Of a stretch of 32,519 bases of DNA, positions 1-27,649 are shown in pieces. This DNA is from Bacteroidota bacterium. GTDB taxonomy: Bacteria > Bacteroidota > Ignavibacteria > UBA10030 > SZUA-254. The notes under the pieces were generated by a model. That model worked only from the letters and a program-made list of their open reading frames with translations, was not told where the DNA came from and ran no database searches. A program made the translations under genes and the position numbers. Position 1 is the first letter of the stretch; each line of letters opens with the position of its first letter. Location: the NCBI GenBank assembly GCA_030019075.1, contig JASEHD010000019.1:1-32519 (forward strand). The letters are read 5' to 3'.

Positions 1-1878
1 ATATGTGCTCTCGCTGATCATGATGTTTGTTCGATACACTTTATTAGCCCCTTCCAAACGCGCACCCAAGTTAACGCTGTCGCCTATTACTGTGTAGTCA
101 AACCGGTTTGCACCACCCATATTTCCAACAATTAGCTCGCCGGTGTTAATACCGATACGTGTGTTCAGAGAGGGTCGTTTCTCGCGACTCCAACGCATGT
201 GTAACTCTCTTAATCGTTGTTGCATTTTTAAAGCGGTCCGGCATGCACGATATGCGTGATCTGCCTGCGGTATTGGCGCCCCCCAAAACGCGACTATCGC
301 ATCACCTTCATATTTGTCAAGTGTGCCATCGTTGGAAAGAATTATCGCTGTCATTTCGCTAAGATATTCATTCAGGATTGCGACAAGATTTTCCGGGGGC
401 ATTTGTTCCGATATCTGTGTAAAATTTTCTATGTCGCTGAAGAATACTGTTAATTCTTTCCGCTCACCGCCTAACCGCAGTTTCTCGGGGTGTGCTACAA
501 GCTCATCTACGATAGTAGGATTCACGTATCGGCTGAACATATTTTTAATGAGAACTTTTTGCTTGCGCTCGGAGATATAACTGTAAACTGTGCTGCCAAC
601 GTAGCAAACAATGATCGCAAGGAATGGGCTGGTCATATCGGTGAGAAAATTTTCCTTAATGAAGAGCTGCAATGATAACAAGTAAACGAGGAATAGCTCT
701 GCTAAAACAAGCGCAACACCTAAAATTTCGATGAGAACGCTATATTTTGTCCGAATTGCCTTCAGTCCCTCGGTGAAAACAAAAGTAAACAGACTCAAGC
801 CGAAAACAATTAACGCTGTCATCCACAATGGCTGCCGCCAAATAAAATTTCCATCAAGAATGCTTTGGATTACATTTGCATGAATTTCCACACCGTACAT
901 TTTGTTATCGTCATCGTGTTCTCCTTTTGCAATCGGTGTCGGAAATAAATCTTTGTCTTCAGGCATCGTTGATCCGACGAGAACGATTTTGTCTTGAAAC
1001 GTTCCATCATAAAGATAGCCATATTCAGGATCGTCGAAAGTATTTATTTCTTCCCCGGGATTGTTTAACTCTTCAATCGTTTGAAGTTCTTTATCATCGA
1101 TTATATCCGCAAAGCGAATCCGTTGGAATGTGTTTGATGGTCCATAATAATTAATAAGAAATGATATCGGGTCGTACTGCGGAATAATCTTTTCACGATA
1201 TCTAAAATTCCCTTCTTCAACAATTGCCGTGTAATCGGGCGTTTGATGCAGGGCGATGTTCGCTACTGCCATGGAAAAAGTCGGTATAGGAAGTCGACGT
1301 GCTTCATCATAGACAAATGGCATGTAGCGTCTTACCACTCCGTCAAGGTCTTCGCGGGTATTAACAATGCCAACGTTGCATGTTGCATCGATAATAGTAT
1401 TCCCATAATTTTGATATTTATCTTGAACAATATAGTGTTTAAATTCGGTTTCTACTTTACCGGCAAGAACAACATTTCCCGCTTCCCTTATTGCCTGCCT
1501 TAATTGTTCATTTTGTTTGAAAGAGATAGAATCGCTATGTCCAAACAAGATATCGATACCGATTGTATTTGCACCAGCGCGCTTAAGATTTCTAACAAGC
1601 TTTGTATAATATGTTCTGGGCCAGGGCCATTGGGCGGGCAGTGATTTGAACGATTCCTGAGATATCTCTACGATTATTATATCAGATTTATTTTTAATCG
1701 TTGGATTTAATCCGCGCTGGCGGAAGCGCAAATCTATTAGCGACAACTCAGCTCGTTTCAGCGGAGGAAATTCTATTAAGACATCTTGGGTGAGAAGTAG
1801 GATGAAAATTGTTACAAAAAAACTTATGCTTAGGTTGAGGAAAAATAAACGAACGGGTTTTGAAAATCCTCGAGGCAT
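1..1878 (-). CDS. CHASE2-domain adenylate cyclase (class III), C-terminus cut by window edge
   Basis: The frame is open from the ATG at 1878 to base 1 with no stop, giving 626 residues of a longer protein. It has one N-terminal membrane segment (about 12-30), an extracytoplasmic CHASE2 sensor domain (about 40-370, with the typical DLRFRQRG start and IVLVGST near its end), two or three further membrane segments (about 370-450), and a class III cyclase domain. Visible catalytic residues are the metal-binding Asp of FFSDIENF (about 482), Lys and Asp in DKYEGDAIVAFWG (about 520), Thr in DYTVIGD, and the transition-state Asn and Arg in VNLGARLE. The Lys/Thr pair matches cyanobacterial CyaC-type adenylate rather than guanylate cyclases. 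It is the last gene of a four-gene operon and starts 7 bases after its upstream neighbour. The ligand is unknown. Confidence 0.93.
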   Translation of the reverse strand, partial: MPRGFSKPVRLFFLNLSISFFVTIFILLLTQDVLIEFPPLKRAELSLIDLRFRQRGLNPTIKNKSDIIIVEISQESFKSLPAQWPWPRTYYTKLVRNLKRAGANTIGIDILFGHSDSISFKQNEQLRQAIREAGNVVLAGKVETEFKHYIVQDKYQNYGNTIIDATCNVGIVNTREDLDGVVRRYMPFVYDEARRLPIPTFSMAVANIALHQTPDYTAIVEEGNFRYREKIIPQYDPISFLINYYGPSNTFQRIRFADIIDDKELQTIEELNNPGEEINTFDDPEYGYLYDGTFQDKIVLVGSTMPEDKDLFPTPIAKGEHDDDNKMYGVEIHANVIQSILDGNFIWRQPLWMTALIVFGLSLFTFVFTEGLKAIRTKYSVLIEILGVALVLAELFLVYLLSLQLFIKENFLTDMTSPFLAIIVCYVGSTVYSYISERKQKVLIKNMFSRYVNPTIVDELVAHPEKLRLGGERKELTVFFSDIENFTQISEQMPPENLVAILNEYLSEMTAIILSNDGTLDKYEGDAIVAFWGAPIPQADHAYRACRTALKMQQRLRELHMRWSREKRPSLNTRIGINTGELIVGNMGGANRFDYTVIGDSVNLGARLEGANKVYRTNIMISESTY

Positions 1879-1885
1879 GATTTAT

Positions 1886-4312
1886 TCAGATCTCGGCGCG
1901 GAGAATGAGATTCCAGACAATATCGATACTCGTTTGACTGTAATTGTACATCTTTTGGTTGAAATAAATATTCATCTGTGTTTGTGCGCTAAGATTTTTA
2001 TAGAAATAATATTGCGCACTTAATGTTGTCTGTATTCTTGATATTTCACCAAATGTTGGATTAAATCCTCCAAAAAATCTCAGCTTATCCTCCATCATTC
2101 GGTAATTTGCATTCAATGAAAGAGTTGTGTAGGTAAGTTTTGTGGTTTCGTTATTGCCTGAAAGAAAACGGTTCGAGTTATATGACAATGAAAACATCGT
2201 CTGCAAAGGAATTTTAAACGTTGAAAAATTACTGAAAGTAAAATTGGTGTTTTTTGTATCAAAATTTCTTTCTGTATAATCATCCTTATTTGAGGTACTC
2301 ACTCCCATAGAAGCGTTATGACGTAAATTTATGAAGTTGTAATCTTTTCCAATTTGGAAGATAATGCGGTTTGTTTTGTCATCAGTTCCATAGAATTTGT
2401 CCTGCCTGCCGTTTTGATTCGAATTTAGAAGGTATGCTATGGTTACGCTAGGCGCATTAATTCTTGGATAGTAAGAGATACCTACATTAGTTGTTGCACT
2501 TACAGTGGTAGCAATTTTTGTTTTTACGGTATTGTCAACAAGTCGCTCATGTCCTGCCAATACGAATATTTGATTATCGAAAAGTCGAAGACGATCCGAG
2601 ACATTATATCCCTGCACATCGGTCCGAAGAAATGGCTGACCGAACGACTCATAACTTTCTCCACGGCGAAGATAGGAAAACTTAAATGTATTATTGAAAT
2701 AATTTAATGAGGTACCTGCATCGTACGATAATGTTGAAGTTGGTGTATTTTTGGATGGAAGAGGAATGAGGTGTTGATTGACAGTAATAACAGGAGAAAT
2801 GATATCTCTTAGCTTTCGGATATTATCTCGGAACTTATTATCTTCATTGGCAAACATACTATCAATTTCACTATCTGAAATCTTCCCCTTGCTGAAGTCT
2901 TTATTACTTGCACTTAATGCAGCTTGTCCCCAAAATTCAAAATTTCGGTTGTCGAATGAAACCATGAAATCGGATCCAAGAACTACGTTTTCTTCGGGTT
3001 TTATACCATATCGAATAGAGCTAATATCATCTTTCGATTTGAGATAAGTGAATCCAAGATGTGTTCCCTCGCGTTTACCGAAACTTGGACGGATGATAAA
3101 AAGCTCGCGTTCATAGGTACCATATTTGTATTCTGCCCATAGTGAATCCTGATACGGAGCAAAAATATCCGTTTTATCTTGTCTTGTGGTATCTTGTTTT
3201 ACAGAATTAATTGAATCAAATAGAAACGTTCTACACAACTTTCCTTCAATCTGTCGAGTAATACTTCCTTTTGCAAAGTCGAGATTAAGTATATCTACCG
3301 AAATGCTCCCAGTCAAGCCTCGCACGCGTTTGCCGCTCAAGAAAAAATCGGGAAAAATTGGATAACTGTCACCATATCCAATTTTGAGCCATGGAGATTC
3401 CAGTCCAATAAAAAAACGGTTTTGCGGCTGCCTGTAATCTTTTTCCTCATTCGTTAGATAAAGATTACCTTTTACCCGATACACATCATAAGCACCATTT
3501 GCCGAAATTGTACCGCGATTGTATGGGGTAACTTTATCGGATATGTTTTCTTGTCGTGTTTCTAACTGAAATGAAGATGAATATGTCCATGGGCTTGATG
3601 ATCTGCCCGTGGTTCGGTTAACGCCATCACCGATTACAGTAAAATACCATGAGAAGCTTTTCACCGGGTTTCCAAGTGTATCTTTAATAGCAACACGGAT
3701 TGTATGTTGTCCCCCTTTGAATGATATGTTTGCATTTTCCGGTTTCAGTACAAAAAGGTCTTCTGCACGCAAAGCATATGCTGAGAGATCATTTTCATCA
3801 AGAAAGATCTGAATAGAATTTAAATCAATTAATGAATCGGGATAGTAAAGTGTAAACGATATGAGAAAATCTTCCGGATAAACATGTTCATCCTGTTCTG
3901 GGCTGAGTATAGTAAATTCGCTTGAAATCACAGAAGCGGGTTTGAGGTCGATCCTGAACGGTTGTTGTTCTGCGTTTTCCAGGGGATAGGTTTCTGGGTC
4001 AACCTGCCCGCGAATATGGAGAATGAAATAATACTCGATAAACGGCGGATGAAGCGCTTCAGCAGGAAGTGAAAAGGAAGCGGTGTTGTTGGTAAGCGTC
4101 ATTTCGGTATGTTTAAAATTTCGCTCACCAAACTGTCGGTATGCAATCTCAACTTGATCGAGCAAGTTTGATTGCATGAGATCAATTTGAATTGTAAGCG
4201 GCTGACCATGCTGAATTGAGCCGATAGTTACTTTTGCAACTTTATCGCTTACCTGTGCCAGCGCAAATGATGCAGTTAAAAGAAATACAATTGCAGTAAT
4301 TAATCGTTTCAC
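1886..4312 (-). CDS. Putative outer-membrane beta-barrel protein with N-terminal Ig-like domains
   Basis: This is an 808-residue protein with a signal peptide (MKRLITAIVFLLTASFALAQ, cleavage expected after ALA). Residues about 22-130 and 135-230 look like two all-beta, Ig-like periplasmic domains; the second ends in HTIRVAIKDTLGNPV and YFTV. From about 240 to the end the sequence alternates polar and hydrophobic residues with many Tyr, Phe and Asn and repeated short strands (for example FKFSYLRRGESYESFG), as expected for a large outer-membrane barrel. I recognise no specific family. The start is GTG, since the frame upstream reaches a stop with no ATG. It lies between the FecR gene and the CHASE2 cyclase, so a role as envelope sensor or channel is plausible but inferred. 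Confidence 0.75.
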   Translation of the reverse strand: MKRLITAIVFLLTASFALAQVSDKVAKVTIGSIQHGQPLTIQIDLMQSNLLDQVEIAYRQFGERNFKHTEMTLTNNTASFSLPAEALHPPFIEYYFILHIRGQVDPETYPLENAEQQPFRIDLKPASVISSEFTILSPEQDEHVYPEDFLISFTLYYPDSLIDLNSIQIFLDENDLSAYALRAEDLFVLKPENANISFKGGQHTIRVAIKDTLGNPVKSFSWYFTVIGDGVNRTTGRSSSPWTYSSSFQLETRQENISDKVTPYNRGTISANGAYDVYRVKGNLYLTNEEKDYRQPQNRFFIGLESPWLKIGYGDSYPIFPDFFLSGKRVRGLTGSISVDILNLDFAKGSITRQIEGKLCRTFLFDSINSVKQDTTRQDKTDIFAPYQDSLWAEYKYGTYERELFIIRPSFGKREGTHLGFTYLKSKDDISSIRYGIKPEENVVLGSDFMVSFDNRNFEFWGQAALSASNKDFSKGKISDSEIDSMFANEDNKFRDNIRKLRDIISPVITVNQHLIPLPSKNTPTSTLSYDAGTSLNYFNNTFKFSYLRRGESYESFGQPFLRTDVQGYNVSDRLRLFDNQIFVLAGHERLVDNTVKTKIATTVSATTNVGISYYPRINAPSVTIAYLLNSNQNGRQDKFYGTDDKTNRIIFQIGKDYNFINLRHNASMGVSTSNKDDYTERNFDTKNTNFTFSNFSTFKIPLQTMFSLSYNSNRFLSGNNETTKLTYTTLSLNANYRMMEDKLRFFGGFNPTFGEISRIQTTLSAQYYFYKNLSAQTQMNIYFNQKMYNYSQTSIDIVWNLILRAEI

Positions 4313-4317
4313 AAATT

Positions 4318-4351
4318 CATAACTATAAGATGGTTATCCTTTTTAGTTATG
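4318..4351 (-). promoter_or_regulatory. 8-bp inverted repeat in the leader of the barrel gene
   Basis: Read on the minus strand, CATAACTA and TAGTTATG form a perfect 8-bp inverted repeat around an 18-base loop containing AAAAAGGAT. The right arm ends in an ATG that opens a three-codon reading frame (ATG AAT TTG TGA), whose TGA overlaps the GTG start of the 808-residue gene. A TTGACA lies just upstream, but no -10 box sits at a normal distance. It could be a hairpin hiding a ribosome site, an operator, or chance in AT-rich DNA. Confidence 0.35.
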
Positions 4352-4387
4352 TCAAGATACAAAATTTACAATTAATTCGCACCAAAT

Positions 4388-5089
4388 TTATTGTTTGTAC
4401 CGCAGCTTCAATTCTTTTTTGTTACCCTCGGGATCCTGTAACTCAAGCTTCAGCTCATTCAATGTTCCACCAATTGCCGCATTTGCCGCTTGATTAAGTT
4501 CCTGTTCTGTCGCTTCCCGCGATGTAACTGACCCTGTTTCGTCAGAAAAACCAACAAATCCCGCTCCTACATCAACCTCATTATTTGATACTAAATTTCT
4601 AAGATTGACAAGACCCTCTGTTACAACTAATGTATCGTATCCATTACCGCTGCTCCATTTTCCTTTTGTGCCCCGAATGGATGCAACGGAAGTCGGAGAT
4701 GAAAGACGAAATTTTTCATTCCCTTGTTTCTGAACATCAAACCCTAATGAGCCTTTGTAAAGATGTGCCTGCTTTGTCATCGTACCGCGTTGCCCTTCAC
4801 CATGAATAGTTAACTCTGATTCTTCTCGCAAACGGACAATACTATTATCCTTGAATTTTAAAATCGCCAGCGACTTTTTTGCTGTGCGTACCTGATTTCC
4901 GTTGTATAGCATATCTCCCTTGTCGGCTTTTGTCCAATCGGCTGCTTCCATTTTCTTTTTAACGTCTTGAATAACTTTTGTCATGACAGCGAGCGATGGA
5001 TTATCTGATGTGTAGCCAGAGAATAAATTAATTATTAATAAACTGGCAATCACCAATAAACTGCTTTTTATAAATGTTCGGTGTTTCAT
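4388..5089 (-). CDS. FecR-domain periplasmic protein
   Basis: This is a 233-residue protein with an N-terminal signal or anchor segment (about 8-25). A FecR-like domain spans about 55-170: GDMLYNGNQVRTAKKSLAIL, DNSIVRLREESELTI, FRLSSPTSVASIRGTKG and TLVVTEGLVNLRN follow the usual order of that fold. The C-terminal tail (about 190-233) is charged and probably helical. There is no anti-sigma cytoplasmic part and no sigma-factor gene nearby, so it is not a classical FecI/FecR pair. A strong ribosome site (TAAAGGAG) overlaps the stop of the preceding gene, showing translation within an operon. FecR-like proteins are often found beside CHASE2 sensors, which fits this neighbourhood. The role as a periplasmic signalling or scaffold partner is inferred. 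Confidence 0.88.
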   Translation of the reverse strand: MKHRTFIKSSLLVIASLLIINLFSGYTSDNPSLAVMTKVIQDVKKKMEAADWTKADKGDMLYNGNQVRTAKKSLAILKFKDNSIVRLREESELTIHGEGQRGTMTKQAHLYKGSLGFDVQKQGNEKFRLSSPTSVASIRGTKGKWSSGNGYDTLVVTEGLVNLRNLVSNNEVDVGAGFVGFSDETGSVTSREATEQELNQAANAAIGGTLNELKLELQDPEGNKKELKLRYKQ

Positions 5090-5103
5090 AATTATAATCT
5101 CCT

Positions 5104-6201
5104 TTATTCAAAACTCACTTCGATGTTATTATCAAGCTTCCTCAGCTCATTAATAATTTTCATAAGCTCACCACGCGAAATTAATGTGCCATTTAGTATA
5201 TACTGACCGCTCGTTTTAAATCCATCCTTATGTATCTGCTCGAAAATTGCAGAATACTGATTTCCCAAATGGTCTTCGAGAATTTTAAGAATCGGATCTG
5301 CCGGTAATTTTTGAGGGTCAAGATTTCCCTGGGTTGAGCTTGAAACTGTAAATAATCCAATAGAACTGGAGATTTCATTTTCAGTGCCTCCAACCTCAAG
5401 AATTTTACTCACGACACGCCATACATATGTTTTTCCCTGCTCCAAGGGCCTGCCGCCCGAATAGAAAAACGAGTTTTGATCTTTTGTTAATGGCTGTTCA
5501 TCCATAGGTGGCTCTTTAATAATTGCATCCTCGCGGGATTGGTCGGGTAATTTTTCAGCAATTGTAATAACTCCTTTATTACCTTCGTGGAAAAATTCAA
5601 AAAGAGGAAATTCGTTTGTTGTTTCACCATCGCGTGGCGAAAAAAGCTCAACGCGGGAAGGATTTTTTATCTCAATTGGATCGGGCTTGGGCTCTACATT
5701 CACTTCGTACTGTTCGTTGCTAAGCTTGAAATCAAATTCATATCTGCCTGCTGGAAATTTCCCCGTTGCAAGTGCGACATTTTGGACCTTTTCCTTTATA
5801 TCCGCGGGTAAATTAAATTCTCTTGACCTGATTTCGGAATTTTTACCTATCATTAAGTTCGTTATAACTCTTCCACCGAGAGGCACCTCAAACGGTAGTG
5901 TGTTGAAAGTAACCGGTTCCGGAAACTGAGTTCCGTCTGCTAATGTAATCCTCAATGAAACATCAAGTTGAACATTAACCGAAATACATGTATCATTTTG
6001 AATATAGAGAGTAAATAATAATGTTTTGCTTTCAAAGTGTTCGAGATCAATATCGGCGAGGGATAGTTGTTGAAATGGCATCATGCTAACCCTCATTTTC
6101 AAGCATTGAGAGCTTGCCATTTGAGGCGCCATCACACTAATTACGAACAACAAAATCAAAAACATTAAACCGTATCTAAAATTTCCGTTTATTATTTTCA
6201 T
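5104..6201 (-). CDS. Secreted protein of unknown function with FN3/Ig-like segment
   Basis: This is a 365-residue protein with a hydrophobic N-terminal segment (about 10-32) ending in MASSQ, consistent with Sec export. Residues about 33-175 form a beta-rich region. Residues about 180-290 have the pattern of an FN3/Ig-like domain: VELFSPRDGETTNEFPLFEF at its start, then LEQGKTYVWRVVSK. The last 60 residues look helical with a conserved-looking ILNGTLISRGELMKIINEL. I do not recognise a named family. It is the first gene of the FecR/barrel/CHASE2 operon; a GGGG ribosome site lies a few bases before the ATG and a promoter-like sequence lies just upstream. A role in envelope sensing is inferred from position only. 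Confidence 0.8.
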   Translation of the reverse strand: MKIINGNFRYGLMFLILLFVISVMAPQMASSQCLKMRVSMMPFQQLSLADIDLEHFESKTLLFTLYIQNDTCISVNVQLDVSLRITLADGTQFPEPVTFNTLPFEVPLGGRVITNLMIGKNSEIRSREFNLPADIKEKVQNVALATGKFPAGRYEFDFKLSNEQYEVNVEPKPDPIEIKNPSRVELFSPRDGETTNEFPLFEFFHEGNKGVITIAEKLPDQSREDAIIKEPPMDEQPLTKDQNSFFYSGGRPLEQGKTYVWRVVSKILEVGGTENEISSSIGLFTVSSSTQGNLDPQKLPADPILKILEDHLGNQYSAIFEQIHKDGFKTSGQYILNGTLISRGELMKIINELRKLDNNIEVSFE

Positions 6202-6243
6202 AACAACCCCACTTAATAAAAACCTTTGTTAACTATTACATAT

Positions 6244-6272
6244 ATAATAAAGATTTACACTGTTAAATTCAA
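6244..6272 (-). promoter_or_regulatory. Probable sigma-70-like promoter of the CHASE2/FecR operon
   Basis: On the minus strand TTGAAT (6267-6272) and TATTAT (6244-6249) are separated by exactly 17 bases. Transcription would start near 6237, giving a leader of about 36 bases before the ATG at 6201. It lies in the only sizeable gap between rseP and this operon. Confidence 0.5.
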
Positions 6273-6344
6273 TAAAAACCATTTTTTATCTACAATAATA
6301 TAGTTTTTGCCTAAGGAATAAGATGTGTGTATTATCACGCAAAG

Positions 6345-27268: not shown

Positions 27269-27649
27269 ATGTATCAAGATATTAAAGACCGAACTTTTAA
27301 TTTTGGCTTGAGGATTATCAATCTTTCGGTGAAATTACCAAACAATACAGCTGGATATGTACTCGGCAAACAAATATTACGATCCGGAGCTTCTGTCGGA
27401 GTCCCGACATATGTCGGGATTGAAGAAGCTGTAGCTGCATTCAGCAAGGATGATTATATCTATAAGATGAGCGTTGCTCTTAAAGAGGCAAGAGAAACAC
27501 ACTATTGGTTAAGGTTGATAGATGGATCAAAAATGATTGAAAGGAAAAGACTTGAAGATTTGATTATCGAAGCAGAGGAAATCAAGAAAATTTTAGGTGC
27601 TATAGTTAGCAAACTTCGGGGCAAGTCAAAGAATCAGATAAAAAAATAA
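27269..27649 (+). CDS. Four-helix-bundle protein (23S rRNA intervening-sequence family)
   Basis: This is a 126-residue helical protein. LGKQILRSGASVG, EEAVAAFSKDDYIYKMSVAL, and KEARETHYWLRLI are the family hallmarks (the S23/IVP group, TIGR02436-like). The usual short GAN turn after SVG is replaced by VPTYVG, encoded exactly by an 18-bp palindrome. A strong AAGGAG ribosome site precedes the ATG. It splits two ABC genes that look like partners, and A-rich (5') and T-rich (3') simple sequence flanks it. The function of the family is unknown; members are often mobile. Confidence 0.9.
   Translation: MYQDIKDRTFNFGLRIINLSVKLPNNTAGYVLGKQILRSGASVGVPTYVGIEEAVAAFSKDDYIYKMSVALKEARETHYWLRLIDGSKMIERKRLEDLIIEAEEIKKILGAIVSKLRGKSKNQIKK
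27402..27419. repeat. Perfect 18-bp palindrome inside the four-helix-bundle gene
   Basis: TCCCGACATATGTCGGGA is its own reverse complement over all 18 bases. It encodes part of VPTYVG at the position where relatives have a tighter turn. It keeps the reading frame. Confidence 0.75.

Follow-up and report, generated by a model that had tools for sequence, protein, structure and literature searches.

A conserved four-gene operon of a predicted outer-membrane barrel, a FecR protein, an FN3-like protein and a CHASE2 cyclase in Bacteroidota: a candidate envelope-to-cAMP signalling module

In the FecA-FecR-FecI system of E. coli, the FecR domain serves as a periplasmic relay from an outer-membrane barrel. 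Envelope proteins have also been described in connection with CHASE2 sensors. The CHASE2 cyclases CyaD1, CyaD2 and CyaK of Sinorhizobium meliloti respond through the outer-membrane barrel NsrA (PMC13001267), and SMc02177, a FecR protein of S. meliloti under Clr control, is dispensable for the perception of the plant signal (PMC5498481). In Campylobacterota, a CHASE2 cyclase is clustered with a FecR-domain outer-membrane protein, a TPR protein and a phosphodiesterase, for which one pathway was proposed (PMC9239204), while the BiofilmReg operon of Burkholderia comprises a FecR/LysM protein and a CHASE2 histidine kinase (PMC5192318).

The window, i.e. the whole stretch of DNA analysed here, comprises 32,519 nucleotides and represents a complete contig (C110, JASEHD010000019.1) of a 3.18 Mb genome of an uncultured Bacteroidota bacterium of the class Ignavibacteria. 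Its left end is formed by a unit of four minus-strand ORFs, read from position 6201 to position 1, with the following features:

5104..6201, minus strand: FN3L, predicted to be secreted, with two Ig/FN3-like domains followed by a helical C-terminal tail; it opens the operon (ORF of 365 aa; structural model)
4388..5089, minus strand: FecR, an exported protein with one FecR domain and without an anti-sigma N-terminus (ORF of 233 aa; PF04773)
1886..4312, minus strand: predicted outer-membrane barrel with signal peptide, two Ig-like domains and a barrel of about 26 strands (ORF of 808 aa, GTG start; AlphaFold2 model)
1..1878, minus strand: CHASE2 class III adenylate cyclase, the C-terminus of which is lost at the contig end (open ORF of 626 aa; PF05226 and PF00211)
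6202..6344, minus strand: gap of 143 bp separating FN3L from rseP, where the operon promoter is likely to lie (from the sequence; sigma-70-like match at chance level only)

The arrangement of four genes on one strand with short gaps, given in an earlier sequence-only reading, was recovered in the ORF check, the gaps being 14, 75 and 7 bp. The same reading had noted one promoter-like site. A sigma-70-like match is indeed present at 6272-6244, but such matches amounted to 17 compared to 14.9 in shuffled sequence, and the promoter and terminator scans gave results at chance level. Since the matches show no excess over shuffled sequence, the promoter argument carries no evidential weight. Upstream of the unit, rseP, dxr and dnaB were assigned by Pfam; since rseP and dxr are missing upstream in several families that retain all four genes, these two are regarded as positional neighbours only. 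At the other side of the window, positions 27269-27649 encode a protein of the 23S rRNA-intervening sequence family (PF05635, E 6.6e-17) between two ABC transporter genes.

As in the NsrA system of S. meliloti, a CHASE2 cyclase is accompanied by an outer-membrane beta-barrel; there, the cAMP output depends on the barrel and is read by a CRP-family protein (PMC13001267). In contrast to S. meliloti, the barrel here shares one conserved operon with FecR, FN3L and the cyclase; the two barrels are compared by role, which is described for NsrA and proposed for the window barrel. The Campylobacterota cluster shares with the present unit a FecR-domain envelope protein adjoining a CHASE2 cyclase (PMC9239204), whereas the present unit comprises neither a phosphodiesterase nor a TPR protein and has a separate barrel of about 26 strands together with an FN3-like protein. 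The same upstream position of the FecR protein relative to the CHASE2 sensor is found in Burkholderia BiofilmReg, in that case directly (PMC5192318), but there the output is a kinase and a barrel is absent.

A further comparison was made with six regions of Pseudomonadota plasmids, which had been picked for annotated hits. In all six, a FecR gene lies upstream of a CHASE2 gene in the same short operon. The two genes are adjacent in five of the regions; the exception is Paraburkholderia aromaticivorans, with an OmpA-family gene between them. The output of these units is a cyclase or another one. On the Methylocystis plasmid NZ_CP143315.1 (L209:2237-5902), one protein combines FecR and TPR parts with a TonB-receptor-like barrel at its C-terminus, and its gene overlaps the CHASE2 cyclase gene. 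FecR, barrel and CHASE2 cyclase thus form one unit as in the window, but FecR and barrel are fused and the barrel resembles TonB-dependent receptors. Since no homology between the window barrel and the Methylocystis fusion protein was detectable, such architectures appear to have evolved around unrelated barrels. Relatives of the window barrel were not found on the plasmids searched. Together with the papers on Campylobacterota and Burkholderia, these regions bear out the earlier statement that CHASE2 and FecR genes are neighbours in other phyla as far as the pair is concerned, i.e. an exported FecR-domain protein and a CHASE2 protein in one operon, as also present here; barrel and FN3L, on the other hand, are constant partners in this phylum.

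No Pfam family was found for the FN3L protein of the window. Its structural model (pLDDT 86) predicts an FN3 domain at residues 180-288, which matched FN3 folds with a Z of 10.2, preceded by another Ig-like domain, in agreement with the initial description as an FN3-like secreted protein. A link to DUF928 was obtained for 2 of 32 members (best E 4e-4) and did not recur in further FN3L proteins scanned; it was dropped as an assignment and is kept as a weak lead only. In another genome (G210), a protein of 1066 aa (L184:12897-16097) contains both an FN3L-like region and an S8 subtilase domain and is encoded in the vicinity of a barrel relative; no CHASE2 was found in this genome.

The FecR domain (PF04773, E 6.2e-12) covers residues 66-161 of the FecR protein, and hydropathy indicated one N-terminal hydrophobic segment at residues 5-23. 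One signal-like segment of this kind is likewise present in FN3L and in the barrel protein, as expected from the export signals that had been noted for the three proteins. Some of the FecR proteins in families f4 and f6 contain one to three copies of the first Ig-like domain of the barrel; FecR proteins with this domain occur at L050, L053, L054, L056, L057, L058 and L067. At L059:10236-11939, the encoded FecR protein (568 aa) has several additional copies of the same domain.

For the 808-residue protein, the sequence-only reading had made the assignment as a barrel dependent on structure prediction. The AlphaFold2 model (pLDDT 81) comprises two Ig-like domains at about residues 25-230 and about 26 barrel strands at residues 243-807; the alternation within the strands fits an amphipathic pattern, and an outer-membrane beta-barrel is predicted. 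The best structural match was MtrB (6r2q_B) with a Z of 21.6 (464 residues, 4.3 A); the AlgE group (about 16) scored five Z units lower, and ushers reached about 15. This comparison with MtrB/PioB is a fold match only, with no Pfam match in any of 31 members of the window barrel's family and no cytochrome gene among the four. The first Ig-like domain matched peptidylarginine deiminase chains in their C-terminal part (E 2e-4). Fifteen conserved polar residues were assigned to the lumen side and six to the outward side, conserved columns being excluded from the orientation call; this modest bias is small and expected for barrels in general.

The fourth protein showed Pfam matches to CHASE2 (PF05226, E 3e-55) and Guanylate_cyc (PF00211, E 4.9e-22), with a transmembrane-flanked CHASE2 followed by a class III catalytic domain. 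The window contains 626 aa of the about 730 aa found in relatives. In the full-length cyclase of a relative, hydropathy indicated one N-terminal and three later transmembrane segments, three of which, including two of the later ones, were seen in the window cyclase. In class III cyclases in general, lysine and threonine at the purine site go along with ATP as the substrate. An alignment of 24 CHASE2 cyclases showed Asp482, Lys522, Asp526, Thr596, Asn603 and Arg607 to be invariant, so that the metal pair (D482/D526), the purine pair (K522/T596) and the transition-state residues N603 and R607 are all present. The residues at the purine site would fit ATP rather than GTP as the substrate, and the previous identification of a membrane adenylate cyclase with CHASE2 and intact catalytic residues is upheld. 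Possible cAMP receptors are present in the genome, namely a CRP-type regulator that combines a cNMP-binding with an HTH_Crp_2 domain, and a further three cNMP-binding proteins.

Two fusion proteins with such domains were also observed. A second CHASE2 protein of the same genome (L072, G000:C183:14608-17253; 881 aa) is a fusion of CHASE2 with a sigma-54 activator, in which the membrane sensor is joined directly to the sigma-54 AAA+ domain. In genome G246, a phosphofructokinase of 496 aa with an N-terminal cNMP-binding domain (L193:7169-8659) is encoded divergently at a distance of 174 bp from a CHASE2 cyclase, which points to a possible direct control of glycolysis by cyclic nucleotides.

A profile scan of genome contigs with a nine-member barrel alignment was used for the distribution of the unit. 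Within the order, the barrel is present in 52 of 60 relatives. Of 39 loci, 33 have all four genes on one strand in the arrangement FN3L-FecR-barrel-cyclase, with the FN3L family upstream of FecR in every complete locus. Five of the remaining six loci end at contig ends, while G002 has its cyclase elsewhere. The co-occurrence survey that the sequence-only reading had proposed was extended to 149 genomes of the class. Barrel and FecR share the same 59 genomes (Fisher p about 5e-43, related genomes being treated as independent), and 58 of these possess the orthologous cyclase. FecR lies immediately upstream of the barrel in all 56 testable cases, i.e. those with both genes on one contig, and the cyclase immediately downstream of it in 54 of 58; in G002, G078, G096 and G105, the cyclase is found at another place in the same genome. 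A cyclase kept without the three other genes had been named beforehand as the observation that would refute a common function. This pattern was not seen in the class sample, where a cyclase ortholog lacks the barrel only in three incomplete drafts from a single genus (68, 79 and 85% complete). Where the barrel is missing, the genomes contain more distantly related CHASE2 proteins, and these have different neighbours (CsgG-like or SH3-like proteins). Other CHASE2 cyclases (L093, L190 and L196; L094, L095 and L197) have recurring neighbours of their own, namely SH3-like exported proteins in one clade and a CsgG-like or lipoprotein-like gene plus an 830-aa protein in another.

Among 247 genomes of the phylum, barrel relatives were found outside the class too. 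An identical operon of four genes is present in families f26, f37 and f52. In the six genomes from families f29 and f44, the FN3L-FecR pair, the barrel and the CHASE2 protein (about 780-800 aa) lie at three separate places and all persist, and this persistence after separation is the strongest sign of a shared function. In the cyclase tree, the operon clade is separate from other CHASE2 cyclases, and the three f29/f44 cyclases used join f26 (99/96) within this clade (95/79). Since these cyclases are placed inside the operon clade, the break-up is probably a derived state. In f29/f44 (L169, L170, L174 and L175), the barrel gene is preceded by genes for a HIT-family and a small TPR-like protein, with clpB next in f44. 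Since it is found beside these genes and not beside the cyclase, the barrel may have another job there.

Because the four genes are kept together in relatives, or are all kept even when scattered, FN3L, FecR, barrel and CHASE2 cyclase very probably form one system reporting cell-surface events. Our preferred reading, to which we assign a probability of roughly 0.6, is one envelope-spanning signalling module that sets cAMP, in which barrel and FN3L would sense, FecR would relay and CHASE2 would switch the cyclase. It starts from what was directly observed, namely the four-gene unit, its conservation, the co-retention after dispersal, the catalytic residues and the CRP-family regulator, and makes use of the predicted folds of barrel and FN3L. 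The physical contacts, the direction of signalling and the signal are those that we infer as follows. The barrel would span the outer membrane and expose its two Ig-like domains to the periplasm, and FN3L would be its secreted or periplasmic partner. FecR would act as periplasmic go-between, contacting the Ig-like domains of the barrel as well as the CHASE2 domain. A change of the barrel, be it in ligand, cargo or assembly state, would then alter FecR and in turn the CHASE2 domain, which would switch the cytoplasmic cyclase, and cAMP would reach CRP-type receptors. The Ig-like domain copies in FecR proteins of f4 and f6, the FecR-CHASE2 operons of the six plasmids and the NsrA pathway of S. 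meliloti speak for this relay; the lack of detectable homology to the Methylocystis barrel and the dispensability of the FecR protein SMc02177 speak against it.

The main rival considers the barrel primarily as a transport or export channel, i.e. an MtrB-, AlgE- or usher-like conduit with FN3L as its cargo or surface partner. The FecR-CHASE2 pair would monitor or control this channel, and cAMP would be a feedback on export instead of a response to the outside. The fold matches to MtrB, exporters and ushers point in this direction, and the best of them, a conduit and not a sensor, counts against the relay. The mostly lumen-facing conserved polar residues and the separation of barrel and cyclase in f29/f44 can be read in the same way. 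Nevertheless, the loci read contain no constant cytochrome, inner-membrane transporter or export ATPase, and the conserved unit stops at the cyclase, so that we regard the conduit as unlikely, if well ahead of the other alternatives.

Clearly less probable is a signalling unit of FecR and CHASE2 cyclase only, with barrel and FN3L co-transcribed from a common promoter but outside the pathway. FecR-CHASE2 pairs without a barrel gene do exist in Phyllobacterium and Paraburkholderia, and FN3L-FecR is separated from the barrel in f29/f44. However, the exact match of barrel and FecR across 59 genomes, the co-retention of all four families after the break-up and the FecR proteins with built-in copies of the barrel's Ig-like domain argue against such bystanders. 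A transport and regulation system of the Fec type, finally, would account for a FecR domain alongside an outer-membrane barrel, in which the unit resembles FecA-FecR-FecI. It differs in its predicted output, cAMP, and in the barrel family, for which Pfam gave neither a plug nor a TonB-dependent receptor match. Since no sigma factor gene was found among the neighbours and FecR comprises no cytoplasmic anti-sigma part, the system is rejected as Fec-type with hardly any doubt, as the sequence-only reading had already concluded.

Beyond the envelope-spanning module itself, a broader proposal can be made, which we hold tentatively and at slightly less than even odds. The four proteins would represent a previously undescribed transenvelope receptor in several classes of the phylum, leading from a dedicated barrel (about 26 strands, Ig-like domains in the periplasm) via FecR to a CHASE2 cyclase. 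It would be a cAMP counterpart of FecA-FecR-FecI, with FecR as a general adaptor of outer-membrane barrels to CHASE2 sensors.

CHASE2 is a widespread sensor domain with a largely unknown input, and a study of 2016 stated that the factors recognised by CHASE2 were not known (PMC5192318). The conserved operon offers a testable answer, namely that CHASE2 reads a periplasmic FecR protein which reports on an outer-membrane barrel. If this is true, the relay principle of FecR would reach beyond sigma factors to second messengers, in bacteria whose signalling has been little studied.
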